Positions 3,253 to 15,273 of a stretch of DNA of 26,961 nucleotides are shown one piece after another (position 1 is the first letter of the stretch; the number at the start of each line of letters is the position of its first letter). Under the pieces are notes generated by a model, which searched no databases, was not told the DNA's origin, and worked only from the letters and a program-made list of their open reading frames with translations. The stretch is from a virus. A program made the position numbers and the translations under genes. The DNA lies in IMG/VR virus record IMGVR_UViG_3300005253_000588, positions 1-26,961 of that record; one strand, written 5' to 3'.

Positions 3253-3768
3253 ATGGTGATCCCCGCGATCCTCGGCATCGACCTCGACACCACGCGAGTG
3301 CACATGGTGCTGATCGACGGTAAGATGGACACGGACGAGATCGTGGCCCAGTCGGTGGTGCCGAAGTCGTGGGTAGCCTCGCGCAAGTTCCTCCCCCTGA
3401 TGGGGTCGGTGGAGGTGAGCCTCCAGCACATGCGGGTGCAGATGTCGAAGGCGAGGCCGGAGGATCGGGCGGTCTACATCGAAGGCCTCCCGTGGATCAA
3501 GAACCGAGCAGGCTTCGCCTCGCTCGCCAAGGTGCTGGGCGGTGTTCAGCTGCTGGTGCACCAGACGATGGGACTCGAAGCCAAGGTGCTGAACGGGGCG
3601 GAGTGGAAGCACGAGCTAGGGCTGTCCGGCAACGCCAACAAGGAGGCCATCGCCGCATGGGTGCGGGGCTACCGGGGCGAAGAGTTCGAGACGCAGGACC
3701 TGAACGATGCGTTCTGCGTGGCCCTCGCAGGCTACAGTCTGTCGATCGTTGAAGAGGAGCCCGCATGA
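3253..3768 (+). CDS. RuvC-like Holliday junction resolvase
   Basis: 171 residues with the RuvC RNase-H fold pattern. ILGIDLD gives the first Asp (about 10), VYIEG gives Glu77, and DLNDAFCVALAG gives the paired acids Asp149 and Asp152. GLSGNANKEAI at about 122-133 matches the conserved segment that carries the catalytic-loop Lys in bacterial RuvC. The enzyme would cut four-way or branched DNA, resolving recombination intermediates or trimming replicative DNA before packaging. It starts 3 bases after the phosphoesterase stop and overlaps the next gene by 4 bases (ATGA), so it sits in a tight operon. Confidence 0.85.
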   Translation: MVIPAILGIDLDTTRVHMVLIDGKMDTDEIVAQSVVPKSWVASRKFLPLMGSVEVSLQHMRVQMSKARPEDRAVYIEGLPWIKNRAGFASLAKVLGGVQLLVHQTMGLEAKVLNGAEWKHELGLSGNANKEAIAAWVRGYRGEEFETQDLNDAFCVALAGYSLSIVEEEPA

Positions 3769-4400
3769 GCACGCCGATCATCGCACTGGACATCGATGGG
3801 GTGCTCGCGGACTTTGGGTCCGACTTCCTACGCCTCGCCCAGAACCTGCACCCGGAAGATGGGCTGGAGTGGTGGACCGCAGGGGGGCAGCAGACATGGC
3901 AGCACGAGAACCTGACCACCAAGCAGAACAACGAGACGTGGGAGTATGTGTATGCTCATCCTGAGTGGTGGGGTGGGCTCTCGACGATCCCCTCGGTAGT
4001 GGAGATCAGAGAGCTGAGGGAGTTCGTGGCGGACATCGACTGTCACGTGGAGTACATCACGGCCCGAGGCACCGCGCGCTCCGCGAAGGCCCCCGAGGCT
4101 ATCACGACCATCACACAGATGTGGCTGCATGGGAACAGATTCCCTCAGCCGGACAACGTGACCCTCGCCGAGGACAAGGCCGTCGCCATCGATGAGCTGG
4201 TCGAACGCATCCCCGGTGGTCAGCTGCTAGGGTTGCTCGACGACCGACCTGCCACGCTCGCCGACCTAGCGGTGATGGGCTACCCGGTCGTGGCGCGTGA
4301 CTGGCCCTACAACCGGAGCATCTCGCAGAAGTTCGTACCTCGGGTCTATTCACTTGGAGAGTTCACGCACTTGATGCGTTTGCGTGTCGCCGCCCCGTAG
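3765..4400 (+). CDS. 5'(3')-deoxyribonucleotidase-like HAD phosphatase
   Basis: 211 residues of the HAD superfamily. Motif I is DIDGVLADF (nucleophile Asp9, general acid Asp11). Motif II is the Thr in EYITARG. A late LLDDRP supplies the C-terminal acidic pair. Length and motif spacing match the NT5C-type nucleotidases, which remove phosphate from deoxynucleoside monophosphates. In a phage this would tune nucleotide pools or dispose of host nucleotides. The start overlaps the RuvC stop by 4 bases. Other HAD phosphatase substrates remain possible. Confidence 0.85.
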   Translation: MSTPIIALDIDGVLADFGSDFLRLAQNLHPEDGLEWWTAGGQQTWQHENLTTKQNNETWEYVYAHPEWWGGLSTIPSVVEIRELREFVADIDCHVEYITARGTARSAKAPEAITTITQMWLHGNRFPQPDNVTLAEDKAVAIDELVERIPGGQLLGLLDDRPATLADLAVMGYPVVARDWPYNRSISQKFVPRVYSLGEFTHLMRLRVAAP

Positions 4401-4425
4401 TGTGTGCCCACCCCATATCTGGGTG

Positions 4426-4617
4426 ATGGGTGCGACGACGAAGCAGCTACCGAACAGCCAGCGAGGACACTGGCTGGTGGAGCGAGAGGGCACGTGTAGG
4501 CGTCGCAAGTGTGGCCTCACGAAGATGTTCGCTGAGCGAGAGTTCACGGACGATGTAGAGGGCAAGCGCGTAGGTGGGGGCACCGCGAGGCACGACCTCG
4601 AATGGGCACTAGAGTAG
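4426..4617 (+). CDS. Small protein with one CxxxxC pair, unknown
   Basis: 63 residues from ATG 4426. GTG codons at 4402 and 4384 are also in frame, and no start has a clear ribosome site. The protein is basic in the middle (GTCRRRKCGL) with an acidic end. The two cysteines are four residues apart, which could be half of a metal site. I do not recognise the family. It follows the deoxyribonucleotidase and precedes a well-supported small gene. Confidence 0.5.
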   Translation: MGATTKQLPNSQRGHWLVEREGTCRRRKCGLTKMFAEREFTDDVEGKRVGGGTARHDLEWALE

Positions 4618-4626
4618 GAAGCGCCG

Positions 4627-4980
4627 ATGGACCGGAAGATTTCACCGCGCAGGGTCTACGGACGGTTGACCTCTACGATGCAGGGGATCGACAAGGACGT
4701 AGTCGCTGCGTCCGACCGCCTAGTCGATGAGTCGCTGGAGCTGCTAGAAGACGAGGAGCCCCGCCTGCTCCATTGGCTGAAGACGAACCCGGAGATCGAC
4801 ACCCTGCTGGGGTCGCACACGGTCGCGATGCACGCGCTGCTGTTTGGTGATTCCCGTCGAGGGTACCCCCTCGAACACACGATGGGCAGGCTCGACGCAC
4901 TGAACTACAGGCTGGTCTGCACACTGGCCGTGATGGCTACGATGAGAGAGCGGCCACTAGCAAAGGAGGTACGGCCATGA
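4627..4980 (+). CDS. Hypothetical helical protein
   Basis: 117 residues with no recognised domain. The first 60 residues are charged and look helical, with an acidic run SLELLEDEEPRLLHWL. The rest is helical with a hydrophobic RLVCTLAVMATM segment near the C-terminus. AGGAAG stands upstream of the ATG. It overlaps the next gene by 4 bases. It lies in the small-gene run leading to the terminase genes. Confidence 0.7.
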   Translation: MDRKISPRRVYGRLTSTMQGIDKDVVAASDRLVDESLELLEDEEPRLLHWLKTNPEIDTLLGSHTVAMHALLFGDSRRGYPLEHTMGRLDALNYRLVCTLAVMATMRERPLAKEVRP

Positions 4981-5354
4981 TGCCAGACGACCGAGACGAC
5001 GTCCCGGGCGAGGGTGAGGGCGAGGTCCCTGTGATCACCGGAGAGATGTCCGAGGAGGCGATCACGGCCGCAGCACTGATCAACGACTCGGACTTCATGG
5101 CCCGGCTCGACACGCTCTACGATCACTTCGTGGGGATCGGGACCAAGGCCGTGTCCTCCGCTGCGTACGGCGACGCCATGAACGCGTTTGGCAACGCGAT
5201 GCAGATCGCCAACTCGATGCACAACATCGCGCTAGTGCGCGAGAGCATCGTGCGGAAGCGCCTTGACAGGCATGCCACCCGGACCGACCTCGACCTCGAC
5301 GACGATGACCCTGCCAACGACCTCTTCGGTGGTGACGCGGTGGACGACCTGTAG
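4977..5354 (+). CDS. Acidic hypothetical protein
   Basis: 125 residues, acidic at both ends (N-terminal DDRDDVPGEGEGE, C-terminal DLDLDDDDP) with a helical middle. A near-perfect ribosome site AAAGGAGGT lies 7 bases before the ATG, so strong expression is likely. No known family is recognised. The acidic tails and position just before the terminases would fit a DNA mimic or a packaging accessory, but that is only a guess. Confidence 0.75.
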   Translation: MMPDDRDDVPGEGEGEVPVITGEMSEEAITAAALINDSDFMARLDTLYDHFVGIGTKAVSSAAYGDAMNAFGNAMQIANSMHNIALVRESIVRKRLDRHATRTDLDLDDDDPANDLFGGDAVDDL

Positions 5355-5355
5355 G

Positions 5356-5643
5356 ATGATGGACGAGCGCATGCAGGAAGGGGCCGAGGGGCCGACACCC
5401 GAGTCGTCGCTCGGCTATACCCGTCGCATCCGCGCGATGGTGCACGAGGCCGCCTCCCACTACAGCCCGAGGCGCACCGGGCAGGAGATGATGGACACCG
5501 CACTCGACCTCTACGCGGTTGCGTTGGATGGGCTGTTCGGCGAGCGCTGGCGGAAGCACGCTCACCCCGAGCACCGGGACATCCTCCGGCACTACATCGA
5601 CGACCCAGTCCACTGGGAGACTGCAATGGCGGGCACCGGGTGA
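5356..5643 (+). CDS. Hypothetical protein before the terminase
   Basis: 95 residues from ATG 5356, one base after the previous stop. An upstream in-frame ATG at 5263 would overlap the preceding gene by 92 bases with unlikely Thr/Ser-rich sequence. The protein is helical and contains RRTGQEMMDTALDLYAVALDGLFGERWRKH. I recognise no family. Its stop overlaps the GTG of the next gene (GTGA). Confidence 0.7.
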   Translation: MMDERMQEGAEGPTPESSLGYTRRIRAMVHEAASHYSPRRTGQEMMDTALDLYAVALDGLFGERWRKHAHPEHRDILRHYIDDPVHWETAMAGTG

Positions 5644-6137
5644 CGCAGGGGACAGGGACACACGGTAGCAAGTTCACCCCGGAGACCCTAGCCCTTTTCA
5701 TCGAGGGTGTGCGCGACCGGGGTCTGACGCTCAAGGCTGCATGTGGCTACGCCGGGATCGCTACACGTACGTTGGAGCGCTGGCACGCCCGCGCCCGCTC
5801 CGAGGCAGCCGACGAGGACGCCAAGGAGATCGGACCCTACACCCAGTTCTTCCTCGACATCGAGCTGGCGCAGGGACGCGGGCAGGCCACGGTCGAGGAG
5901 CAGCAGTGGAAGCTCATCAATGCCGGGGACGGTCCGTCCATCCGCCGCTGGTTGGAGGCGCACGACCCACCCACATGGGGCCGCAGGACCTCAGGCCGCG
6001 CCCCGGTGGTCATCACTGGCGACGGAACGAAGGTCGCGATCCTACAGCAGGGTACCTCGGAGAACCCGGCCGACTACTTCGGCGTCGAGTCCGTGGTCAC
6101 TGACCCCACCCTAGCAATCGAGGGACCTGCCGAGTGA
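5640..6137 (+). CDS. terS: Terminase small subunit-like HTH protein
   Basis: 165 residues. An N-terminal helix-turn-helix of the kind in phage small terminases is visible (FTPETLALFIEGV, then LKAACGYAGIATRTLERWHARAR). It is followed by a helical oligomerisation-type segment and the conserved ending SIRRWLEAHDPPTWGR. Small terminases recognise packaging sites on phage DNA and recruit the large subunit. It starts at a GTG overlapping the previous stop and overlaps the large-terminase GTG by 4 bases, which is the usual order. The assignment rests on HTH plus neighbour. Confidence 0.8.
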   Translation: MTQGTGTHGSKFTPETLALFIEGVRDRGLTLKAACGYAGIATRTLERWHARARSEAADEDAKEIGPYTQFFLDIELAQGRGQATVEEQQWKLINAGDGPSIRRWLEAHDPPTWGRRTSGRAPVVITGDGTKVAILQQGTSENPADYFGVESVVTDPTLAIEGPAE

Positions 6138-7786
6138 CCACCGCCACCACAGAGAAGCAGCGGATCAATGACCCGTCCATGCTCTACCTGTTCCGCACCC
6201 CGGACGGGCGAGCGGCTCGGTGGCAACGCCCCACCACCAAGCAGGAGCTGGCGGATAGGTTCGAGCTGTTCGGCTTGAAGCTGAGTCCTAACGTGCACCC
6301 GGCGTGTGTGGATTTGGGCCACTCCGCGCCCCTCGACGTGGCGTGGTCCATCTATAGCGGCACCGATTACCGCACAGGCAAGCGCGCGCCGGTGATCGTC
6401 CTCAAGGGTTCGCGTGGCCTGTCCGGCAAGAGCACCTTGCTCGCCGGGGTATCGAGCATCGAGGGGCTGGAGGGGTACAACGGAACGGTCCTTGGTGGCT
6501 CCTTGGTCCAGTCGCAGAACGTGCAGGAGATCAGCAACAAGATCTGGGACCGCGACATCGAGACCGACGAGGCCATCTACGAGGGCGGGCTCTCGATCCT
6601 CATCGACGACCCCACCGCTTACCAGACCAAGTTCTCGTACTCGGGGGCGTGGCGTAAGGTTCTGACCGCATCGTCGAGGCAGGCCCGAGGTCCCCACCCG
6701 CACCGGCTGCGGATGGACGAGGTCGACGAGATGGTGCAGAGCGTCTTCGACAGCGCCATGGGTCAGACCATGAGCCTCGACCTAGACATGCCGATCCAGA
6801 CAGCCATCGCCTCCACCCACCAGCATGCCGACGGGACGATGACCTACGTGCTCAAGGAGGCTGCCACCAAGGGCTGGCCCGTCTACGAGTTCTGCTACCG
6901 CGAGTGCTTGCGTACCGAGGACCGCTACCTCGACGTCTGGAAGGACACGAAGTGGGACACCGAACGGCGCGCCCCTGACGACGTCCCCGACGGCAAGGAG
7001 GGCGGCTGGCTCCCGATGTGGCTGGTGGTCGAGAAGCGCGACGGCGTCTCGGTCGCCATGTGGAACAACGAGTACGAGCTGGGTGAGCCCTCTATCGAGG
7101 GCCGAGCCATCCACACCCCGGCGGTCGAGTGGACCTTCGACTCTAGTAATCAGTGGTTGGACGGGGGCAGACGTGGCGGGCCCTTCATGGGCGACGAGGG
7201 CGAGTATCTAGAGTTTCCCTGCTGCGAGCTGTACGCTGACAACCGGGTGCCTTGTGCGCGAGGTCATCGCTACATCACTGGGGCCGACTGGGCGCAGACC
7301 ATCGATTGGACGATCATCGTCACCTTCCGTACCGATGTCAGTCCGTGGCGGCTCGTCGCGTGGGAGCGCACCGGCCGCAAGCCGTGGCCCGTGATGTTGA
7401 ACCGCTTCAACATCCGCAAGACTCGCTACCCCGGCCTCGCCGTCCACGACGCCACCGGCATGGGCGGCAAGCTGGTCTCCGACTTCCTAGAGGTCTCGGC
7501 CGAGCCCTTCGTGATGGCGGGCCAGAAGCGGAACCTGCTGTTTACCGACTACGTGGTCGGCGTCGAGAACCACGAGATCATGTGCCCCCGGATCATGTTC
7601 GCCTACGACGAGCACCGGCTGTGCACTGTCAAGGACCTGAAGCAAGGCGGACGCGCCGACGGGGGCCACCCACCCGACTCCGTGGTGGCGGCTGCGCTGG
7701 CGTGGTCGATGCGTGACGTGGAGTTCGTGGAGGACCTACAGCCCGGCGGCTATGACACTGTCGGTCCGCTCGGCGGGCTGGCCTGA
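6134..7786 (+). CDS. terL: Terminase large subunit
   Basis: 550 residues. The ATPase N-half has a Walker A motif GSRGLSGKST at 92-101, a Walker B with RLRMDEVDE at 191-199 and a coupling-motif-like AIASTHQ at 224-230. The RNase-H nuclease half carries the acids Asp385 (GADWAQTIDWT), Asp439 (VHDATGMGG) and Asp515 (GHPPDSVVAA). The enzyme pumps DNA into the prohead and cuts the concatemer. It starts at a GTG overlapping the small terminase stop. All key residues are present, and the length is normal for the family. Confidence 0.95.
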   Translation: MTTATTEKQRINDPSMLYLFRTPDGRAARWQRPTTKQELADRFELFGLKLSPNVHPACVDLGHSAPLDVAWSIYSGTDYRTGKRAPVIVLKGSRGLSGKSTLLAGVSSIEGLEGYNGTVLGGSLVQSQNVQEISNKIWDRDIETDEAIYEGGLSILIDDPTAYQTKFSYSGAWRKVLTASSRQARGPHPHRLRMDEVDEMVQSVFDSAMGQTMSLDLDMPIQTAIASTHQHADGTMTYVLKEAATKGWPVYEFCYRECLRTEDRYLDVWKDTKWDTERRAPDDVPDGKEGGWLPMWLVVEKRDGVSVAMWNNEYELGEPSIEGRAIHTPAVEWTFDSSNQWLDGGRRGGPFMGDEGEYLEFPCCELYADNRVPCARGHRYITGADWAQTIDWTIIVTFRTDVSPWRLVAWERTGRKPWPVMLNRFNIRKTRYPGLAVHDATGMGGKLVSDFLEVSAEPFVMAGQKRNLLFTDYVVGVENHEIMCPRIMFAYDEHRLCTVKDLKQGGRADGGHPPDSVVAAALAWSMRDVEFVEDLQPGGYDTVGPLGGLA

Positions 7787-7801
7787 CCCGTGTATCATGA
7801 G
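7784..7801 (+). promoter_or_regulatory. Copy 1 of 18-nt intergenic element (possible promoter)
   Basis: TGACCCGTGTATCATGAG at the end of the terminase gene is identical to 13497-13514. TATCAT at 7793-7798 fits a -10 hexamer. No -35 is evident. Each copy lies 14-18 bases before the start codon of a small gene. A promoter or another conserved regulatory site is inferred from the perfect repeat. Confidence 0.55.
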
Positions 7802-7815
7802 AGAGAGGTGAACCG

Positions 7816-8136
7816 ATGAGAGGCAACCGGAATCTGCTCGTCTTCTGCCCCGAGGTCTACGACCGGCAGGAGTTCGTATCGACCCCGCAAGGCGTCGCTA
7901 CCACCGAGGCCCAGCCACAAGAGCACAGGTGGCATCAGCACTTCGAGATCGTGCAGTACAACCATGATGGTGACCGCCCTTCGGACTTCATGCTCGGCCC
8001 CGTCGGCCGGGAGTGTGGCCGGTGCCTGTCGCGCCTCAACCCTGCAGGCGAGATCGCCTACACCGACTCGGCTGAGGTCGAGCGGCAGGAAAAGGGCGAG
8101 GTAGCCCCGCCGAAGCTACTGGTACCTCGACATTGA
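7816..8136 (+). CDS. Hypothetical protein with CxxC
   Basis: 106 residues from ATG 7816, with GAGAGAGGTG upstream. It has a CGRC pair in the middle and several histidines (EHRWHQHFEIVQYNHDGDR). A second cysteine pair is not seen, so full zinc binding is uncertain. The family is not recognised. The 18-nt element in front suggests its own transcription start. Confidence 0.7.
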   Translation: MRGNRNLLVFCPEVYDRQEFVSTPQGVATTEAQPQEHRWHQHFEIVQYNHDGDRPSDFMLGPVGRECGRCLSRLNPAGEIAYTDSAEVERQEKGEVAPPKLLVPRH

Positions 8137-8513
8137 ACAGACAGCAGCGCCGCGCACAGGGACAGAGGGGTCCACTCTACACGCGCGAGCAGCGCAAGGA
8201 GGGGATGGGAGACGTCGAGCCAATCCGCCCCGGCCTCTACTACGTCACGCTCTACGCATGGCCGCAGTGGAAGGCGCTCGCGCACCCGGCCCCGATGCAG
8301 TGCCCGGTGGCCTTCGTCGAGAACGTCATGGGCTGGGGCACCGAGCGCATCCCCACCGTGACCGTCAACAAGATGCGAGCCCGGCGCATGCGCCTGTGTT
8401 ACGTCTGCTCGATGGTGGTGCTGGAGGCCCGCGCCCGAGGCTCCGAGATACGGGAGTTCCAGCGCGCGGAGCTGGTCATGAAGCGCGAGCGTGCAGCTAG
8501 GGGGGCCGCATAG
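8133..8513 (+). CDS. Hypothetical protein, basic N-terminus
   Basis: 126 residues from a TTG overlapping the previous stop (TTGA). It begins MNRQQRRAQGQRG, a basic start seen in many small phage proteins. The middle is aromatic (GLYYVTLYAWPQWK), then comes a Cys pair (LCYVC) and a charged helical end. The function is unknown. A start at ATG 8205 would lose the basic tail. Confidence 0.7.
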   Translation: MNRQQRRAQGQRGPLYTREQRKEGMGDVEPIRPGLYYVTLYAWPQWKALAHPAPMQCPVAFVENVMGWGTERIPTVTVNKMRARRMRLCYVCSMVVLEARARGSEIREFQRAELVMKRERAARGAA

Positions 8514-8638
8514 TGCTAGGTGTGATCGCGGTGACTGTGGTCTACGCCCTCGGAGGTGACCCGGCGTGGGCCATCGTGACGGGGTTCGTGGTCGAGCTGC
8601 TGATCCTCAGAGGCGAGCGCCGCCGGGGCCGTGGCTAG
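8513..8638 (+). CDS. Small membrane protein, 41 residues
   Basis: It starts at a GTG whose first base is the last base of the previous TAG, and it ends inside the next gene. The translation has two hydrophobic stretches (LGVIAVTVVYALGG and AWAIVTGFVVELLIL) and a strongly basic end RGERRRGRG, as in a membrane peptide with a cytoplasmic tail. Coding support is the tight packing and hydrophobic pattern. The function is unknown. Confidence 0.6.
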   Translation: MLGVIAVTVVYALGGDPAWAIVTGFVVELLILRGERRRGRG

Positions 8639-9209
8639 CAAGAAGCTCAGCCATGCCGACGTGCAGAGGCACCTCGCGCAGTGGCTGAGGGTACCCAATA
8701 GCAACGCCCGTCCGCCGGTTGTGGCGGAGGAGCTAGCGATCGAGGGATCGTGGGGAGACCACGGCCGCATAGACGTCCTGCTGTTCCGAGCCCTCAACGG
8801 ATACAAGCAGATCGTGCTCGAAGCCTACGAGGTGAAGGCCACGCGCGCCGACTTCCTCAGCGACATCCGCTCGGCGAAGTGGCGACGCTACCTGCCGCGC
8901 CTGACCCGCTTCAACTTCGCGGCCCCCATCGGTGTGGTCAAGGAGAGCGATCTACCGCCGGAGGCAGGGCTCATCGAGATGGGCCTGCGCAAGGACGGCC
9001 GGTACTACTGGCACCGAGTGCGCCGGGCCCCGAGCCTCGCGAAGCTCGACGGCGAGGTGAACTCGGCGGGCTATGTGTTCACTCACGAGCCCCCGACGAT
9101 CGACACCCTCGCCCGCATCCTCTACAAGGTGAACAGCCAGCGTCGCGAGCAGGGCTGGGCGGATGCAATCCGATCAGGAACACGAAGCATCTATCCCCAG
9201 CGCGGTTGA
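8631..9209 (+). CDS. MmcB-like PD-(D/E)XK nuclease-fold protein
   Basis: 192 residues from GTG 8631. The core resembles MmcB-type DNA-repair proteins. A Glu at 33 or 34 is followed by GRIDVLLFR (Asp48) and AYEVKATRADFLSDIR (Glu67-x-Lys69), then RWRRYLPRLTRFNFAAP and GVVKESDLPPEAGLIEM, the conserved metal-site and downstream blocks. MmcB relatives are linked to mutagenic repair or DNA processing, though nuclease activity is not proven for all. It overlaps the membrane peptide by 8 bases. Confidence 0.8.
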   Translation: MASKKLSHADVQRHLAQWLRVPNSNARPPVVAEELAIEGSWGDHGRIDVLLFRALNGYKQIVLEAYEVKATRADFLSDIRSAKWRRYLPRLTRFNFAAPIGVVKESDLPPEAGLIEMGLRKDGRYYWHRVRRAPSLAKLDGEVNSAGYVFTHEPPTIDTLARILYKVNSQRREQGWADAIRSGTRSIYPQRG

Positions 9210-9235
9210 CGCTCGGAGCCACTCCGATCTAAGGT
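9206..9235 (+). promoter_or_regulatory. Possible promoter
   Basis: TTGACG at 9206-9211 is followed after 18 bases by TAAGGT (9230-9235), of the TANNNT type used by actinobacterial primary sigma factors. It lies 25 bases before the start of the next gene. Seen by eye only. Confidence 0.4.
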
Positions 9236-9260
9236 GCGGGGGAGTAGAAGGAGGATCAGC

Positions 9261-9584
9261 ATGGTGGACATGAAACGAGAGCCTGAGGAGGGGTACGCTG
9301 GAGCGTACTACGGCATGGGATTCGGCACGGGCGTGGACGCGCTGGAGTGGCTGAACCTTACGCTGGCCGCATACCCGGAGCACCACATTCCGGTGTGGGT
9401 AGAGGCAGCGTCACCGCTCAAGCCGGAGGCCCCGGACCTCAGCATCGGGGTGCTGCTGCCGATCACAGGCAAGACCATGATCGTGTACGCGGTAGTCGCG
9501 GCGCAGGAAGAGATCGACGAGGCCGTCGACCTTGTGAGCGACTCGCTGGTTGCACGCGCACACTTCAGGTTCGTTAGAGGGTAG
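9261..9584 (+). CDS. Hypothetical protein
   Basis: 107 residues from ATG 9261, chosen because AGAAGGAGG ends 5 bases upstream. An upstream in-frame ATG at 9234 is not needed. The protein has alternating hydrophobic strands (IGVLLPITGKTMIVYAVVAA) followed by an acidic helix and looks like a small alpha/beta fold. The family is not recognised. A promoter-like sequence stands just upstream. Confidence 0.75.
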   Translation: MVDMKREPEEGYAGAYYGMGFGTGVDALEWLNLTLAAYPEHHIPVWVEAASPLKPEAPDLSIGVLLPITGKTMIVYAVVAAQEEIDEAVDLVSDSLVARAHFRFVRG

Positions 9585-9591
9585 GTCGCCC

Positions 9592-10149
9592 GTGCCCATT
9601 CACAACCGAGCCCTGCTGGTGCCCGGGGAAATCCTGCGGGCGCGCTACCAAGGCCGCGAGGTCATGGCCGAGGTGGTGGCCGAAGGCCTGATCCGGGTCG
9701 ACGGTGGCGAGACTCACACTTCGGTGAGTGCAGCGGCCAAGGCCATCACCGGACGCTCGACCAACGGCTGGAAGTTCTGGTCGCTCGTCAACGTGCCGGA
9801 CGTGCCCCCCGAGCAGGCCCCCTTGCTGGAGCCGCCCACACCTGATGTGAAGGTGGACTCGGACGTAAAGAAGGCTACACCCGAGCGTCCGTTCATACCT
9901 TCGGGGTCCTGCGACAGCCCGTTCCACGGGAAGGGTAAATCCTGCCCGGACTCCATCGCGGTGGTCACTCGGGTGAAGGGTGCGGACGAGCGGATGGGCG
10001 AGGTGCACGAGCGCTGTTACGACCACGTGGTCAACATCCTAATCTATTGGGATGGGTTCTGGACCACCGAACCCCTCGACGAGGAGGAGCTAGCCCGCGC
10101 CGAGCGCAAGGTAGACCTCCGCAGACGAGGTGGTAGGAAGGCTGAGTGA
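9592..10149 (+). CDS. RAMA-domain protein with C-terminal Cys/His segment
   Basis: 185 residues from GTG 9592. Residues about 11-66 match the RAMA (restriction-enzyme adenine-methylase-associated) domain: PGEILRARYQGREVMAEVV, then SVSAAAKAITGRSTNGWKFWSL. In other proteins RAMA is proposed to bind modified DNA or accompany methylases. The middle is a Pro/Asp/Lys linker. The C-terminal part has CDSPFHGKGKSC and a later Cys and may bind zinc. No methylase is adjacent. A related RAMA-like tail occurs in the SprT-like gene at 18064. Confidence 0.75.
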   Translation: MPIHNRALLVPGEILRARYQGREVMAEVVAEGLIRVDGGETHTSVSAAAKAITGRSTNGWKFWSLVNVPDVPPEQAPLLEPPTPDVKVDSDVKKATPERPFIPSGSCDSPFHGKGKSCPDSIAVVTRVKGADERMGEVHERCYDHVVNILIYWDGFWTTEPLDEEELARAERKVDLRRRGGRKAE

Positions 10150-10414
10150 TACGTACAGATTCACGCTCGATGAGGTGCGCCCATTTCGAGAGGAGGTCGG
10201 GCTATGATTACCCGATACTGCTTTCGACTGTGAGACGGACGTCCCCAGCGACGCCGCGCTGTGTAGCTCATGTGCCCGTCACCGATCCGATGGACATGAT
10301 CCTGCCACCATCTACGAGGGGCAGTGCCACGGGGCGGGGCCCGACGGACTGAACGAGAAGCGCCAAACCATCAGCAGCCCACGAGGGTTGCTAGCGAGGG
10401 AGCGGGCCCCTTAG
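10142..10414 (+). pseudogene. Possible broken small Cys-rich gene
   Basis: In one frame, 10142-10207 reads as 20 residues (SDTYRFTLDEVRPFREEVGL, if CTG 10142 is the start) and stops at TGA. The same frame then stays open from 10208 to the TAG at 10412-10414 and gives a protein-like CETDVPSDAALCSSCARH segment. That second part has no ATG, GTG or TTG start. An ATG at 10204 overlaps the TGA but reads another frame for nine codons. The picture fits a small zinc-type gene damaged by a stop or frameshift, or an unusual recoding event. The last 40 bases contain a hairpin and are probably not coding. Confidence 0.35.
10373..10392 (+). terminator. Hairpin, possible terminator upstream of the portal
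   Basis: AGCAGCCC and GGGTTGCT form an 8-bp stem (one G-T pair) around the tetraloop ACGA. There is no U-run, so a classical intrinsic terminator is uncertain. The position just before the portal promoter-like element fits a transcription boundary. Confidence 0.45.
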
Positions 10415-10428
10415 TCGGGTAGAATGGA
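10415..10428 (+). promoter_or_regulatory. Promoter-like element before the portal (copy 1)
   Basis: TCGGGTAGAATGGA is identical to 20077-20090 in front of the prohead protease. TAGAAT (10420-10425) is a good -10 hexamer. GGAGG (10427-10431) could pair with CCTCC (10447-10451), which might mask the ribosome site GGGAGA at 10441. Confidence 0.6.
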
Positions 10429-10452
10429 GGGGAGCACCTAGGGAGACCTCCA

Positions 10453-11778
10453 CTGTCCGACCACGACTTCCAAGAGTTCGGTGTCACCGGCCTGAGCGAG
10501 TTCGGTGGGCAAATCCATGAAGAGCGGCTAAGGCAGCTCATGGACCCGACGCGCCGGAACCTGACCTACCGAGAGATGTCCGACAACAGCCCCGTCATCG
10601 GCGGGGTACTGCTGCTCCTCGACCTGCTCGTGAAACAGGTTGAATGGGACATCCGCACTCCCGAGGGTATGGAGGAGGACCCGGTCGCTGTTGAGCAGGC
10701 GGCCTTCGTGGACTCGTGCTTCCTCGACCTCGGCCGCCCGTTCAAGGACGCGGTCAGCGACTTCCTTTCGTTCGTGCCCTTCGGTTGGTCGTACCACAAC
10801 GTGGTGTTCAAGAGGCGGAACGGCTTCCAGCCCGAGCCGAACATCGGTGCCGACGGCAAGGTCATCGAGGGCCCTGTGTCGTCGTTGTTCAGCGACGGGA
10901 AGGTCGGGTGGGATAAGTTCGCAGGGCGCGCCCAATCCACGCTCGACCGCTGGATCTTTTCCAGCCGGGGCGACATCGTGGCGATGGTGCAGCGCCCGCC
11001 CAACGGAGGCACCTCGGTCACGATCCCGCTGTCGCGAGCCCTTCACTTCCGCACCTCGGGACGGCACAACAACCCCGAGGGCCGGAGCGTCCTGCGCACA
11101 GCCTACCGGCCGTGGTACTTCCACAAGACGATCGAAGAGATCATGGCCATCGGGATCGACCGCGACCTCGCAGGTACCCCCGTGCTGGAGGTCCCCGGCG
11201 AGTACATGAAGGCTCGCGCGAACCTGCCAGCCAACCTCGCACGCGAGCGCGATCAGTGGGAGAAGCTGGTCCGCAACATCCGGCGGGGTGCCAAGGATGG
11301 CATCCTCATGCCGCTGGTCCGCGACCGCAACGGCAAGGAGCGGTTCAAGCTCTCGCTGCTGACCACGGGCGGCCGTCGACAGTTCGACATCAAGGGTCTG
11401 CTGGAGTACTACGACCAGCGTATGGCGATGGCCGCGCTCTCCGATGTGATCCTGCTGGGCCACGAGACGGTGGGCAGCTTTGCGCTGGCCGACTCGAAGA
11501 CCAATCTCACCGCGATGTTCGGCAGCTCGCTGACCGACATCATCACCGGCCAGTTCAACCGGCGCGCGATCCCGGCCCTGATGCGGATCAACGGTATGGA
11601 CCCGGAGCGCGCGCCCCTACTGGTCCCGGGTGATATGGAATCGCTGAACCTTGAGGAGCTGGCCATCTACGTGCAGGCGTTGTCCGGTGCAGGCATGCCA
11701 CTGTTCCCCAACGAGGCGCTGGAGGGGCACCTCCTCGCAGCAGCTGGCCTGCCGGGTGAGTCACAGGAACTCGAGTAG
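10453..11778 (+). CDS. Portal protein, apparently starting at CTG
   Basis: Portal of the dodecameric ring through which DNA enters and leaves the head. From CTG 10453 it has 441 residues. The N-terminal stretch GVTGLSEFGGQIHEE followed by LTYREMSDNSPVIGGVL and VKQVEWDI is the conserved opening of a widespread portal family, so translation must begin upstream of the first in-frame ATG at 10540. Between the in-frame TAG at 10420 and that ATG there is no ATG, GTG or TTG. CTG 10453, 6 bases after GGGAGA, is the best candidate. The protein continues with EEIMAIGIDRDLAGTPVLEVPGEY and ends 6 bases before the MuF gene. If only ATG 10540 is used, the product has 412 residues. Confidence 0.9.
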   Translation: MSDHDFQEFGVTGLSEFGGQIHEERLRQLMDPTRRNLTYREMSDNSPVIGGVLLLLDLLVKQVEWDIRTPEGMEEDPVAVEQAAFVDSCFLDLGRPFKDAVSDFLSFVPFGWSYHNVVFKRRNGFQPEPNIGADGKVIEGPVSSLFSDGKVGWDKFAGRAQSTLDRWIFSSRGDIVAMVQRPPNGGTSVTIPLSRALHFRTSGRHNNPEGRSVLRTAYRPWYFHKTIEEIMAIGIDRDLAGTPVLEVPGEYMKARANLPANLARERDQWEKLVRNIRRGAKDGILMPLVRDRNGKERFKLSLLTTGGRRQFDIKGLLEYYDQRMAMAALSDVILLGHETVGSFALADSKTNLTAMFGSSLTDIITGQFNRRAIPALMRINGMDPERAPLLVPGDMESLNLEELAIYVQALSGAGMPLFPNEALEGHLLAAAGLPGESQELE

Positions 11779-11784
11779 ACTGCG

Positions 11785-13203
11785 ATGGCCATCGGCGACC
11801 TCGCGAAGGCAGTCTACGGCCGGAACGGCAAGCGTAAGAATCGCCGCCGCGTCCGCAAGGATGCCAACACCGACCGCATCGCCCGTGCGCTGAAAGAGGA
11901 ACGCTCTCGGCTGGCGCAGGTGTGGGCCGACGTAAGCATCTCCGAGGCCACAGCCATAGCTACGGTCGCCGACTCCTCGCTTGTGGTGGCCACCGTCGAG
12001 GGCGCGTATAGCCCTGCGGCCGAGCCCACTCGTAAGGCCTTGCTCGCGGGCCTTGGGATCGGGGGGGACATCGCTCTGGAGGACCTCGCGATTGCGACGC
12101 TGCAATTCAACCTGACCAACCCGCTCGCGGTGGAGTGGGCTAGCACCAAGTCCGCTAATCTGATCGTCGAGGTCTCTACGGAGCAGGTTGCGACGGTTCG
12201 GTCCGTGATCGCCGAGGGTCTCACCTCAGGCAAGGGCGCGCGAGTTGTGGCGGTCGAGCTACGTGAGACCATCGGTTTGCACAGGCGGTACGCCACGGCA
12301 GTGGATCGGTTCCGCGAAAGACACCTCACCCAACTAATCAAGCAACACCCCCGCACTCCGATCAGTGTGCTACAGGGCCGGGCCGATGCGAAGGCAGCGA
12401 GGTATGCAGACAGGCTCCGTCGCTCCCGAGCCAAGACCATCGCCCGCACTGAGCTACAGCGCGCCGCCAACGAGGGTCAGCGACAGGCGTGGCAGCAGGC
12501 CGTACAAGCTGGGGAGCTGGAGGTTACCAACGCCGAGCGCGAGTACATCGCCACGCTGGGTGGGCACGCTGTCTGCGACGATCAGGACGGTATCCGTATC
12601 CCGTGGGACGGCGAGTTCCCGGTGGCAGGCGACCCGCCGATCCACCCCAATTGCGGGTGCACGTTCGGCCTGCGGAAGGCAGAGGTGCTCGTGCCCTCCG
12701 AGGCGGACGCGGGTCCTCTCTCGATCAGCGGTCCGACTATTACGTCCGCGCAGGTGAATCAGTTCCTCGCTAACTCACAGGTCACGAAGCCGGTGGTTCA
12801 CCGCACGAGCACGTCAGCCGCGCGCTCCATTCGTAAAGGCGGGGTGGACTTCTCGAAGACTGCACCCCGATCTACCTTCGGCGAAGGGTTCTACACGTCC
12901 GAGGAGGCCATCACCTTCTATGGTGACGAGCAGTTGAGTATCGCGATCCGCTCGCAGAAACCGTTCAGGGGAACAGCCCAGCAGATGGATGACAAGATCA
13001 CCTCGTTCGCCTTGGAGGCCCCAGAGAAGACGGTCGAGACCGTCACAGGGGAGGTGAGGGTGGCGTTCTGGGAGAGCGGCGAGCAGCAGCGGGCGATTCG
13101 TCAGGCGTTCCTCGATGAAGGCTTCGACAGCTTAATCGTTGAGTCGGGGAATGATATAATCATCGGGCTGGTCGAGGATAACATAAAGGTCGTGGTGAAC
13201 TGA
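11785..13203 (+). CDS. MuF-type head protein with C-terminal ADP-ribosyltransferase-like domain
   Basis: 472 residues. Residues 1 to about 300 are a phage Mu gpF-like minor head protein: helical, with SRAKTIARTELQRAANEGQRQAW at about 214-236 and the hallmark PIHPNCGC at 285-292. From about 335 a separate domain begins: VVHRTS (His339), then STFGEGFYTSEEAITFYGD (Tyr370), and an end GFDSLIVESGNDIII...DNIKVVV. This order matches the H-Y type ADP-ribosyltransferase or DUF3990-like fold found in MuF polymorphic toxins. The domain could modify a host target after injection or act during assembly. The third catalytic residue is not clear by eye, so activity is unproven. A small Cys-rich gene overlaps its stop. 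Confidence 0.85.
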   Translation: MAIGDLAKAVYGRNGKRKNRRRVRKDANTDRIARALKEERSRLAQVWADVSISEATAIATVADSSLVVATVEGAYSPAAEPTRKALLAGLGIGGDIALEDLAIATLQFNLTNPLAVEWASTKSANLIVEVSTEQVATVRSVIAEGLTSGKGARVVAVELRETIGLHRRYATAVDRFRERHLTQLIKQHPRTPISVLQGRADAKAARYADRLRRSRAKTIARTELQRAANEGQRQAWQQAVQAGELEVTNAEREYIATLGGHAVCDDQDGIRIPWDGEFPVAGDPPIHPNCGCTFGLRKAEVLVPSEADAGPLSISGPTITSAQVNQFLANSQVTKPVVHRTSTSAARSIRKGGVDFSKTAPRSTFGEGFYTSEEAITFYGDEQLSIAIRSQKPFRGTAQQMDDKITSFALEAPEKTVETVTGEVRVAFWESGEQQRAIRQAFLDEGFDSLIVESGNDIIIGLVEDNIKVVVN

Positions 13204-13433
13204 TGGCTGACTGGAAGCGCTCGCGGGGAGACTTTCGTGGGTGCCTAGCCTGTACCCACTACACCGGAGCCGACCGCTGCACCGCGTTTCCTGAGGGTAT
13301 CCCCTTCCCGATCCTCGCGGGGGAGATCGACCACCTCGTAGAGAGGCCGGGGCAGAAGAAGCCCCAGACGCTTCGGTTCGAGGCCCTCCCGGAGCACAGG
13401 CCATCTAGCAAACAGGGGGCCGAGCCCGCCTAG
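13203..13433 (+). CDS. Small Cys-rich protein, usual partner of MuF genes
   Basis: 76 residues; the ATG overlaps the MuF stop (TGATG). The sequence GCLACTHYTGADRCTAFPEGIPFPILAGEIDHLVERPGQ matches a small family (C-x2-C, C-x-AFP, IP, GE-x-DH) often found after MuF genes in phages and prophages. Three cysteines and a His could hold a metal. Because the upstream protein carries a toxin-like domain, a protective or chaperone role is a reasonable hypothesis. The pairing also occurs where no toxin domain is obvious, so this is not settled. Confidence 0.75.
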   Translation: MADWKRSRGDFRGCLACTHYTGADRCTAFPEGIPFPILAGEIDHLVERPGQKKPQTLRFEALPEHRPSSKQGAEPA

Positions 13434-13434
13434 C

Positions 13435-13461
13435 AAGGCTCCGTTGATTCAACGGAACCTT
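13435..13461 (+). terminator. Hairpin after the MuF operon, possible terminator
   Basis: TCCGTT and AACGGA form a perfect 6-bp stem around a 5-base loop. The flanks AAGG and CCTT extend it after one mismatch. It directly follows the last gene of the portal-MuF block and precedes an 18-nt regulatory repeat. The U-run is weak. Confidence 0.6.
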
Positions 13462-13496
13462 ACCACGATCGGAGTACACACCCCCTAACGCGCGCG

Positions 13497-13514
13497 TGAC
13501 CCGTGTATCATGAG
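13497..13514 (+). promoter_or_regulatory. Copy 2 of 18-nt intergenic element (possible promoter)
   Basis: TGACCCGTGTATCATGAG is identical to 7784-7801, with TATCAT at 13506-13511. It comes after a terminator-like hairpin and 18 bases before the next start codon, as expected for a promoter that restarts transcription. Confidence 0.6.
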
Positions 13515-13532
13515 GGTGGAGGGGAACGCCCA

Positions 13533-13823
13533 ATGCTACGTACTGCCCGACGTTTGATCAGGGGTCTGCTACGGCGGCCCTACACACCCAAGCTCGGTCG
13601 CGAGGCCGACGCTATGGAGATGTGGCACGAAGCCGCAGTCAAGGGCGGCATGTTCTGGACGGTGCTCGTCGGGGAGTGGGAGCGCGGCCGAGGAATCGGG
13701 AGGCTCAGTAGCTGGTGCGGCAGGCGCTGCGGCAACGCTGGGTGCATTCGACTGGGCTGTTCCTGTGATGCTGACGTGTGTAGCGACTTCAGGGTCGCGC
13801 TGGTGCGTCGGGAGTTCGAGTAG
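13533..13823 (+). CDS. Small Cys-rich protein, unknown
   Basis: 96 residues from ATG 13533, with GGAGGGG upstream. A GTG at 13503 would fall inside the repeat element. The N-terminus is basic (RTARRLIRGLLRRPY). The C-terminal third is dense in cysteine (CGRRCGNAGCIRLGCSCDADVC) and looks like a metal-binding or disulfide segment. No family is recognised. It is the first gene of the accessory cassette that interrupts the head module. Confidence 0.7.
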   Translation: MLRTARRLIRGLLRRPYTPKLGREADAMEMWHEAAVKGGMFWTVLVGEWERGRGIGRLSSWCGRRCGNAGCIRLGCSCDADVCSDFRVALVRREFE

Positions 13824-13826
13824 CCC

Positions 13827-14000
13827 GTGGCCAGCATGAGCCGGAGGGTCCGGCGACGCAACCGACCAACCCTGACCCCCGGCAGGCGACCGGGCCAGCC
13901 CCGTGCTGTGGATGATCCCCCGACCCCGGCGCAGCTGCGCTTCTACCGCGAGGGTCAGCTCAAGGTGCGTTGGGACTCGATGGCGGACCTTCCGGGTTGA
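13827..14000 (+). CDS. Small basic protein, about 57 residues
   Basis: Starts at GTG 13827 or ATG 13836. The first half is very basic and Pro-rich (SRRVRRRNRPTLTPGRRPGQPR). The second half, TPAQLRFYREGQLKVRWDSMADLPG, looks structured. It could bind nucleic acid through the Arg-rich tail. The stop overlaps the first of two direct repeats that precede the next gene. The family is unknown. Confidence 0.5.
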   Translation: MASMSRRVRRRNRPTLTPGRRPGQPRAVDDPPTPAQLRFYREGQLKVRWDSMADLPG

Positions 14001-14014
14001 CGAAAAGTTCCGGG

Positions 14015-14044
14015 TTGACACTGCCTGCAACGACCCCCTATTCT
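14015..14044 (+). promoter_or_regulatory. Sigma-70-type promoter
   Basis: TTGACA (14015-14020), an 18-base spacer and TATTCT (14039-14044) form one of the best promoters in the window, 21 bases before an ATG. A 12-bp direct repeat TTCCGGGTTGAC (13990-14001 and 14008-14019) puts two -35-like copies 18 bases apart and could be a binding site. Confidence 0.65.
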
Positions 14045-14064
14045 GTCATCCGGAGGCAACGCCC

Positions 14065-14184
14065 ATGAGCACACTAGGTCTGTACACGACGGTGACCTGC
14101 CGATGGGCGTGGGTGCGCCAGCTGGTAGAGGCAGGGCTCCTGCCCCAGCTGATACACGCGGTGCTGCACCCCTTCGGGTTCTGA
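14065..14184 (+). CDS. Small protein, 39 residues
   Basis: ATG 14065 has CGGAGG 8 bases upstream and a strong promoter before that. The translation is compact and hydrophobic (LVEAGLLPQLIHAVLHPFGF) and looks like an amphipathic helix. The stop overlaps the next ATG (TGATG). The function is unknown. Confidence 0.55.
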   Translation: MSTLGLYTTVTCRWAWVRQLVEAGLLPQLIHAVLHPFGF

Positions 14185-14318
14185 TGCACGACCCCATCGC
14201 CTACACATACGAGGCTGACACCCACTGTGAGGGCGGTGCTCGTGGCCCTGCTCGTGGCCCGTATGACCTTCCTACTAATCAGGGGTTGAGTTCCGGGCCT
14301 GACGAGCCGATGATCTAG
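14184..14318 (+). CDS. Small protein, possibly truncated
   Basis: 44 residues. The start MHDPIAYTYEADTHC resembles a small phage and actinobacterial family that normally continues with a second Cys and an acidic, aromatic end. Here the sequence turns into a low-complexity GGARGPARGPYD stretch and stops soon after. A truncated or frameshifted relative is likely, though the family is recalled from memory and not named. The start codon overlaps the previous stop. Confidence 0.5.
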   Translation: MHDPIAYTYEADTHCEGGARGPARGPYDLPTNQGLSSGPDEPMI

Positions 14319-14338
14319 GTGAACCGAAGGAGACGACG

Positions 14339-14545
14339 ATGGCCCTACTGACACGAACCCATCGCCCTGAGTGCGACGAGTCCCACACCGGGTTCGCCAG
14401 CCCCTGCAACACGATCAACGCCCACGCCAACGAGTGCCAGTGGTGCTCGACGGTAGCGACCGACGTGGTCCGCCGCATGTCGCTCTGCGACTCCTGCGCC
14501 GCGACGGCCAAGGTGCAGCTGATGCTCGGGATGGCCCCCGCATGA
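14339..14545 (+). CDS. Zinc-ribbon small protein
   Basis: 68 residues; AAGGAG lies 7 bases before the ATG. Cysteines at PECDE, SPCNT, CQWC and CDSC give two clear pairs plus two singles, which fits a zinc ribbon. The partner is unknown. It overlaps the next gene by 4 bases (ATGA). Confidence 0.7.
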   Translation: MALLTRTHRPECDESHTGFASPCNTINAHANECQWCSTVATDVVRRMSLCDSCAATAKVQLMLGMAPA

Positions 14546-15273
14546 CCGACAAGCCGAAGCGCTGGTACGATGAAGACTTCGCTTCCGAGGGCTACCGTGT
14601 CAGCTCGTCGAGGGCACGGAGCTACTCGATTGAGTACGGGCATCAGCACGAGCGCGTCGCGATCGAGTTCACCGATGGATCGTGGGAGCGCATCCAGCAG
14701 GACCTCCGGCGGCTCGCCGACCAAGGTGTCGACCTCGGGGAACTGGTGAACCTCGGAGTGCTCGGAGAGCACCTACTTACCGAGTTCGAGCGGGACCGGG
14801 AGCTGAGCCAAGAGATCATGGTCTCGACTGCCGAGCGCATCGACCCCTCCACCATGGCGCGGATGGAGGGCTACCACATCCTCGGAGCCAAGCTGCCCGA
14901 CACCGTCTACGGGTCTAACCAGCTGAGGGCCTACGGCAAGACCATCCACGCCTCACACGATCACTTCAACGCCATGTGCGGTCGGGAGATGAGTGTGGCC
15001 ACCGGGGACTGCGGGTCCTTCGAGGACCTCACGATCGAGAAGCTGCACGCATGGACGCACGCGATCCCCTACAGCGGTAAGCTGCGGCGCTCCCGCCCCG
15101 AGATGGTGACCATCTGCGTGAAGTGTACCAAGGTGGTCGCGGCACTGCCCGAGGGGTGGGGTGGCGTGGTCCGTGCTGAGGAGGAAGCCAAGCAGGCCGA
15201 GCGGCTACGGGCGGCCGAGCGCTTCAACGAGAACATGCGTAGCCCACACGATGCACCGGGGAGGCTGACATGA
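14542..15273 (+). CDS. Hypothetical protein with C-terminal CxxC
   Basis: 243 residues from ATG 14542. Residues 1-110 look alpha/beta and acidic. The middle has the His-rich KTIHASHDHFNAMCG. A CVKC pair lies near 205, followed by a charged helix (RAEEEAKQAERLRAAERFNE). The Cys/His set (MCG, GDCG, CVKC) could form one metal site. I do not recognise the family. It is coupled on both sides by 4-base overlaps. Confidence 0.75.
   Translation: MTDKPKRWYDEDFASEGYRVSSSRARSYSIEYGHQHERVAIEFTDGSWERIQQDLRRLADQGVDLGELVNLGVLGEHLLTEFERDRELSQEIMVSTAERIDPSTMARMEGYHILGAKLPDTVYGSNQLRAYGKTIHASHDHFNAMCGREMSVATGDCGSFEDLTIEKLHAWTHAIPYSGKLRRSRPEMVTICVKCTKVVAALPEGWGGVVRAEEEAKQAERLRAAERFNENMRSPHDAPGRLT

Follow-up and report, generated by a model that had tools for sequence, protein, structure and literature searches.

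How does a tailed phage begin its portal protein when the reading frame offers none of the usual start codons ahead of the conserved N-terminus? The question is raised by a 26,961-base virus record (G+C 65%), analysed over its full length and hereafter called the window. In its portal frame, no ATG, GTG or TTG lies between the in-frame TAG at 10420 and the ATG at 10540. The original prediction had noted this gap, with coordinates that we confirm, and had proposed CTG 10453 as the start, a proposal for which we find support in the positions of homologous starts, in codon usage and in a second contig. As far as sequence can tell, CTG 10453 is probably the portal start, and we consider it likely that this uncultured tailed phage tolerates a weak start at this codon. 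The elements concerned are the following.

10420 to 10422, plus strand: in-frame TAG, the upstream end of the portal frame.
10424 to 10441, plus strand: out-of-frame ATG opening a 5-codon frame to a TAG, as read in the sequence; disfavoured as a shifted portal start, codons 10423-10452 not being coding-like.
10440 to 10445, plus strand: AGGGAG, the proposed ribosome-binding site as read in the sequence, with a 7-base gap to the CTG.
10453 to 10455, plus strand: CTG, the proposed start codon; sole near-cognate codon within 10423-10489, at a codon-usage boundary and 12 codons before the conserved G23.
10453 to 11778, plus strand: portal gene of the Portal_Mu family, with 441 codons when counted from CTG 10453 and a stop TAG at 11776-11778; identified by profile, PHROGs, PDB and coding score.
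10540 to 10542, plus strand: first in-frame ATG, codon 30 from the CTG; rejected as a start, the codons upstream of it being conserved and coding-like.

The identity of the gene rests on several matches. Residues 49-428 of the open frame 10423-11778 scored 79.4 bits for Portal_Mu (PF06074), where the cut-off is 23.9, and the portal frame matched phrog_113 (E 5.8e-64) and, by sequence, the solved portal chains 11bp_A (E 4.3e-51), 9mt4_B and 9c39_A. Its downstream neighbour (11785-13203) is a Mu F-like head gene (PF04233, 35 bits against 29.6), and at the head of the phage records listed stand phages of Arthrobacter and Microbacterium, with identities of about 38-40%. Elsewhere in the window, ORF 9550-10149 matched the RAMA domain (PF18755, 38.1 bits against 35.2), and ORF 6134-7786 (550 residues), which occupies the position of a large terminase and is terminase-like by eye, had no match in PHROGs or Pfam at 0.001.

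The N-terminal part of the portal was indeed found to be conserved upstream of ATG 10540, as the original prediction had claimed. In an eight-sequence alignment (A1), G20, G23, G29, E33 and E34 (open-frame numbering) were invariant, and the N-terminal motif was also found in the solved portal chains. A structure model of the portal, built with 44 aligned sequences, reached a mean pLDDT of 79.7; residues 1-9 stayed below 50, while residues 11-20 averaged 76 and residues 21-30 averaged 81. Nearly all of these two stretches precedes ATG 10540, which is residue 30. A portal that started at this ATG, the first in frame, would lack its N-terminal 29 residues, and we regard such a start as highly improbable. 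The stretch lost would carry family-invariant residues and coding-like usage, it is present in solved portals and is modelled at pLDDT of about 76-81 from residue 11, and a normal start codon ahead of the position corresponding to ATG 10540 was missing in none of the 197 homologous loci described below.

Codon usage drew a boundary at the same place. The codon model had been trained on 21 ORFs of the window other than the portal, among them ORF 14371-15273, whose real start is probably 14542. With it, the tail codon-usage score was maximal exactly at 10453, among the 45 codons for which it was printed, and the best coding segment in the portal frame was 10453-11775, with 188.1 bits. The ten codons 10423-10452 scored so low that just 0.14% of 5535 ten-codon gene windows did as poorly. 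The 29 codons 10453-10539, by contrast, ranked at the 48th percentile among 1036 gene windows, a score attained by just 0.2% of 2072 wrong-frame windows. This boundary favours CTG 10453 and disfavours both ATG 10540 and any start further upstream.

Within the leader, CTG 10453 is the sole codon at most one base away from ATG between 10423 and 10489, the codon of G23. The other motifs announced by the original prediction are all present in the sequence: GGGAGA (10441-10446), the end of which is separated from the CTG by 6 bases, TAGAAT (10420-10425), a gap of 27 bases separating it from the CTG, and GGAGG (10426-10430) and CCTCC (10447-10451), which could pair. In random leaders of the dinucleotide content of the window, a CTG occurred by chance 14 to 9 codons before G23 in 12% of cases, and together with a Shine-Dalgarno-like tetramer in 1.2%. 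The anti-Shine-Dalgarno duplex upstream of the CTG, scored as the best one anywhere within 20 bases, reached -7.9 kcal/mol; it was equalled or exceeded at 13 of 36 other starts, a comparison set made up mostly of longest-ORF starts, some of them surely false. The same region bears on a start at ATG 10424, followed within the next dozen bases by a change into the portal frame upstream of the CTG, in which case the CTG would be an ordinary Leu codon. This ATG is the nearest one upstream, and in some homologues start codons do occur 20 to 30 codons ahead of G23. However, the intervening codons would be some of the least gene-like ones in the contig, and the Shine-Dalgarno site is absent before this ATG, GGAGG and AGGGAG both lying after it, which makes this reading very unlikely.

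The original prediction had proposed an alignment with homologous portals as a check, and in this comparison the CTG fell within the interval of the start codons of the homologues. Relatives were sought in viral contigs with the portal, a degenerate N-terminal DNA pattern, the terminase-like protein P0003 and the small upstream ORF described below, and in genome contigs with a portal profile; the loci retained are a sample, namely the best 80 of 568, of 96 and of 582 relatives. Among these, no relative nearer than 45-48% identity (alignment A2) was found apart from contig L010, presented below. A first pass considered 170 loci minus L001, L003 and L010 (the window itself or the near-identical contig), and an ATG, GTG or TTG lay upstream of the motif in 167 of 167. 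In a second pass, 250 loci minus L001, L003, L010 and L171, set aside on the same grounds, were reduced to 197 distinct ones by merging identical 500-base cores, and all 197 had such a codon 6 codons before G23 or further upstream; it should be noted that these counts record the presence of a start codon, which does not prove its use. The positions peaked at -13 (36 loci) and -10 (40 loci) relative to G23, and 121 of the 197 loci had a start codon at -14 to -9, the CTG of the window being at -12. An ATG was available within the start interval in 164 loci, and GTG or TTG alone in the other 33, so weak portal starts are not general in the family.

Could the CTG merely reflect a wrong base, or an insertion or deletion in the G-rich leader, the real genome having a normal start? 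Given the rarity of CUG starts, errors in the consensus may well compete with them as an explanation, and the CTG is not the only oddity of this patch, as the following element lies just upstream.

10204 to 10414, plus strand: small CxxC..CxxC ORF, its Cys-rich body shifted by +1 with respect to the frame of its ATG.

ATG 10204 is followed by nine codons and a stop, and the Cys-rich body runs on in the +1 frame after TTT-CGA to 10414. The ribosome site of this ATG (-13.2 kcal/mol) was the strongest of 37 starts scored, tied with that of 4977. The codon usage of the small ORF was intermediate: its score of -1.9 bits was attained by 0.45% of 888 wrong-frame windows and was as low in 3.6% of 444 gene windows. 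No match was found in PHROGs and Pfam at 0.001; with E values up to 10, the sole family match was a weak one to DZR over a 27-residue piece (E 0.032), alongside one weak phage tblastn match (E 6). The small ORF may be a decayed gene, the site of a programmed +1 frameshift or the product of an error. As a second frame oddity within 250 bases of the CTG, it lends somewhat less trust to the patch. The other apparent frame breaks examined in the window, several adjacent ORFs that the coding score had made suspect, resolved into separate, intact, short overlapping genes. A different short CxxC ORF was observed at most 500 bases upstream of the portal in 4 of 164 loci with sufficient upstream sequence (L030, L041, L079 and L092).

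The accuracy of the leader can be judged against the second contig, L010 (IMGVR 3300005663_001450, 11,051 bases), which aligned with positions 3586-14637 of the window at 99.7% identity, with 31 mismatches and one gap. Its isolated differences from the window (6289, 8001, 9113, 9320 and 14362) are all five silent, third-position changes and fall on both sides of the leader. Such changes make L010 appear a distinct strain, separated from the window by evolution and not by sequencing noise, although the two possibly do not come from separate samples. The leader 10415-10545 was nevertheless identical in both, as was the frame change of the small ORF, and on this sequence comparison the CTG leader seems common to two strains. 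Apart from these five, the differences were packed in three clusters (3815-3887, 4247-4257 and about 5091-5123), a pattern resembling recombination or mixed assembly; in the last cluster, a one-base deletion of L010 near 5110 disrupts gene 4977-5354, which is whole in the window. This broken gene, like the frame change of the small ORF, speaks for error. Against it stand the exact match of an apparently distinct strain over 10415-10545 and the in-frame codons before the CTG, which are not coding-like, and we therefore judge an error in sequence or assembly unlikely.

From a mechanistic point of view, a start at CTG 10453 would involve a ribosome bound to AGGGAG 10440-10445 and the initiator tRNA reading CUG, mismatched at its first base, at a low rate. 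The product would be a portal of 441 residues with the N-terminus Met-Ser-Asp-His-Asp-Phe-Gln-Glu-Phe-Gly. The lineage of this phage probably once had an ATG, GTG or TTG at or close to 10453, for which CTG was substituted. The low initiation rate would reduce the output of portal, which could be tolerated since one ring of portal subunits suffices per virion. According to published figures, quoted second-hand in PMC11497404, CUG accounts for 0.024% of the starts in bacteria, and its output is 0.86% of that of AUG. Among reconstructed ancestral AUG starts, 2 of 61,358 became CUG, according to PMC5622118, and the Mycobacterium smegmatis data of PMC4633059 give no enrichment of CTG even after a Shine-Dalgarno site; the top-listed phage records infect actinobacteria. 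Such published rates count against a CTG start, mark CUG as weak and make a lower portal yield plausible; its regulation, or selection for it, could only be inferred from there.

It is on this last point that the results depart from the original prediction, which had seen a foldable leader masking the ribosome site and, with the rare start, deliberately limiting the portal. The structure in question can be drawn as follows.

10415 to 10460, plus strand: drawable hairpin with the CTG in its stem and GGGAG in its loop, -16.5 kcal/mol, within chance.

A portal is required in few copies per virion. This, the weakness of CUG and a predicted stem that pairs the CTG while its loop holds GGGAG would all suit a limiter. 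The fold itself, however, did not exceed chance. As many as 15% of 3845 46-nt windows of the contig were as stable as 10415-10460, and among the same 36 comparison starts, 3 had a local fold as stable and 8 an opening cost as high as that at CTG 10453. The 86-nt leader 10415-10500 was less stable than the mean of its shuffles (z +0.93), 167 of 200 folding equally well or better, and for 10415-10545 (z -0.71) 41 of 200 shuffles were at least equal. The hairpin was thus rejected as a regulator. The leader is invariant between L010 and the window, with no covariation to back its pairing, and the ATG present in the start interval of 164 of the 197 homologous loci also argues against a deliberate device. 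We hold the deliberate limiting of portal synthesis by CTG and hairpin to be quite improbable, and a role of the CTG start or of the surrounding RNA fold as a control device is unsupported beyond what can be drawn. TAGAAT, described in the original prediction as a promoter-like box, was rejected as a promoter, a scan of 9900-10700 giving no sigma-70-like site where 0.3 were expected. The same interval contained no terminator, and neither Rfam matches nor tRNA genes were found across the whole window.

A weak but tolerated CTG start thus remains the reading that we prefer, and it has practical consequences. Gene finders limited to ATG, GTG and TTG would cut 29 largely conserved residues off this portal, and a CTG-started portal would offer a simple test of the minimum portal supply for a phage. 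Should the CTG leader prove to be a regulatory device after all, it would matter more.

Known systems help to place this locus. In phage Mu, the Com/mom pair (PMC6483171) resembles it in having a small Cys-rich ORF upstream and a weak start codon that can be drawn in a stem. The window differs in that its small ORF does not continue in the frame of the ATG, its target would be the portal and its hairpin is within chance. A similar relay acting on a head gene would require that a CxxC protein, made via a +1 frameshift at TTT-C, bind the leader hairpin and free the CUG, switching the portal on post-transcriptionally. Three marks of Com/mom were looked for. The loop motif CC(N)2-3GAG (PMC6483171) is absent from the leader loop, which reads CCTAGGGAG with a spacing of 4; an intact small zinc-finger activator gene is absent upstream of the portal, the Cys-rich body being out of frame in both contigs; and the stability of the hairpin that holds the start codon does not exceed chance. 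As all three count against it, such a relay appears exceedingly improbable.

Other counterparts are the Portal_Mu portals of the Arthrobacter phages Waltz, Salgado and Kovu and of the Microbacterium phage ValentiniPuff, which share with the window the family (about 38-40% identity) and the N-terminal motif. By contrast with the CTG of the window, their start codon is ATG (for Salgado, as listed); the portal of Ottawa is annotated from a TTG. Among the titles and abstracts listed in literature searches on CTG or CUG starts, phages and portals, no CTG-started portal was found, and a search on portal dosage gave nothing relevant. The closest parallel for the start codon itself is ORF10 of the Bacteroides phage phiB124-14, for which CTG was likewise chosen for want of ATG, GTG or TTG (PMC3338817). 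There, the codon is an annotation mention only, while the CTG of the window draws support from the place of homologous starts, from the boundary in codon usage and from a second strain. Its gene also encodes a head protein. The portal gene described here would thus constitute a well-supported single-gene case of a rare but known type of start, in a phage head gene.
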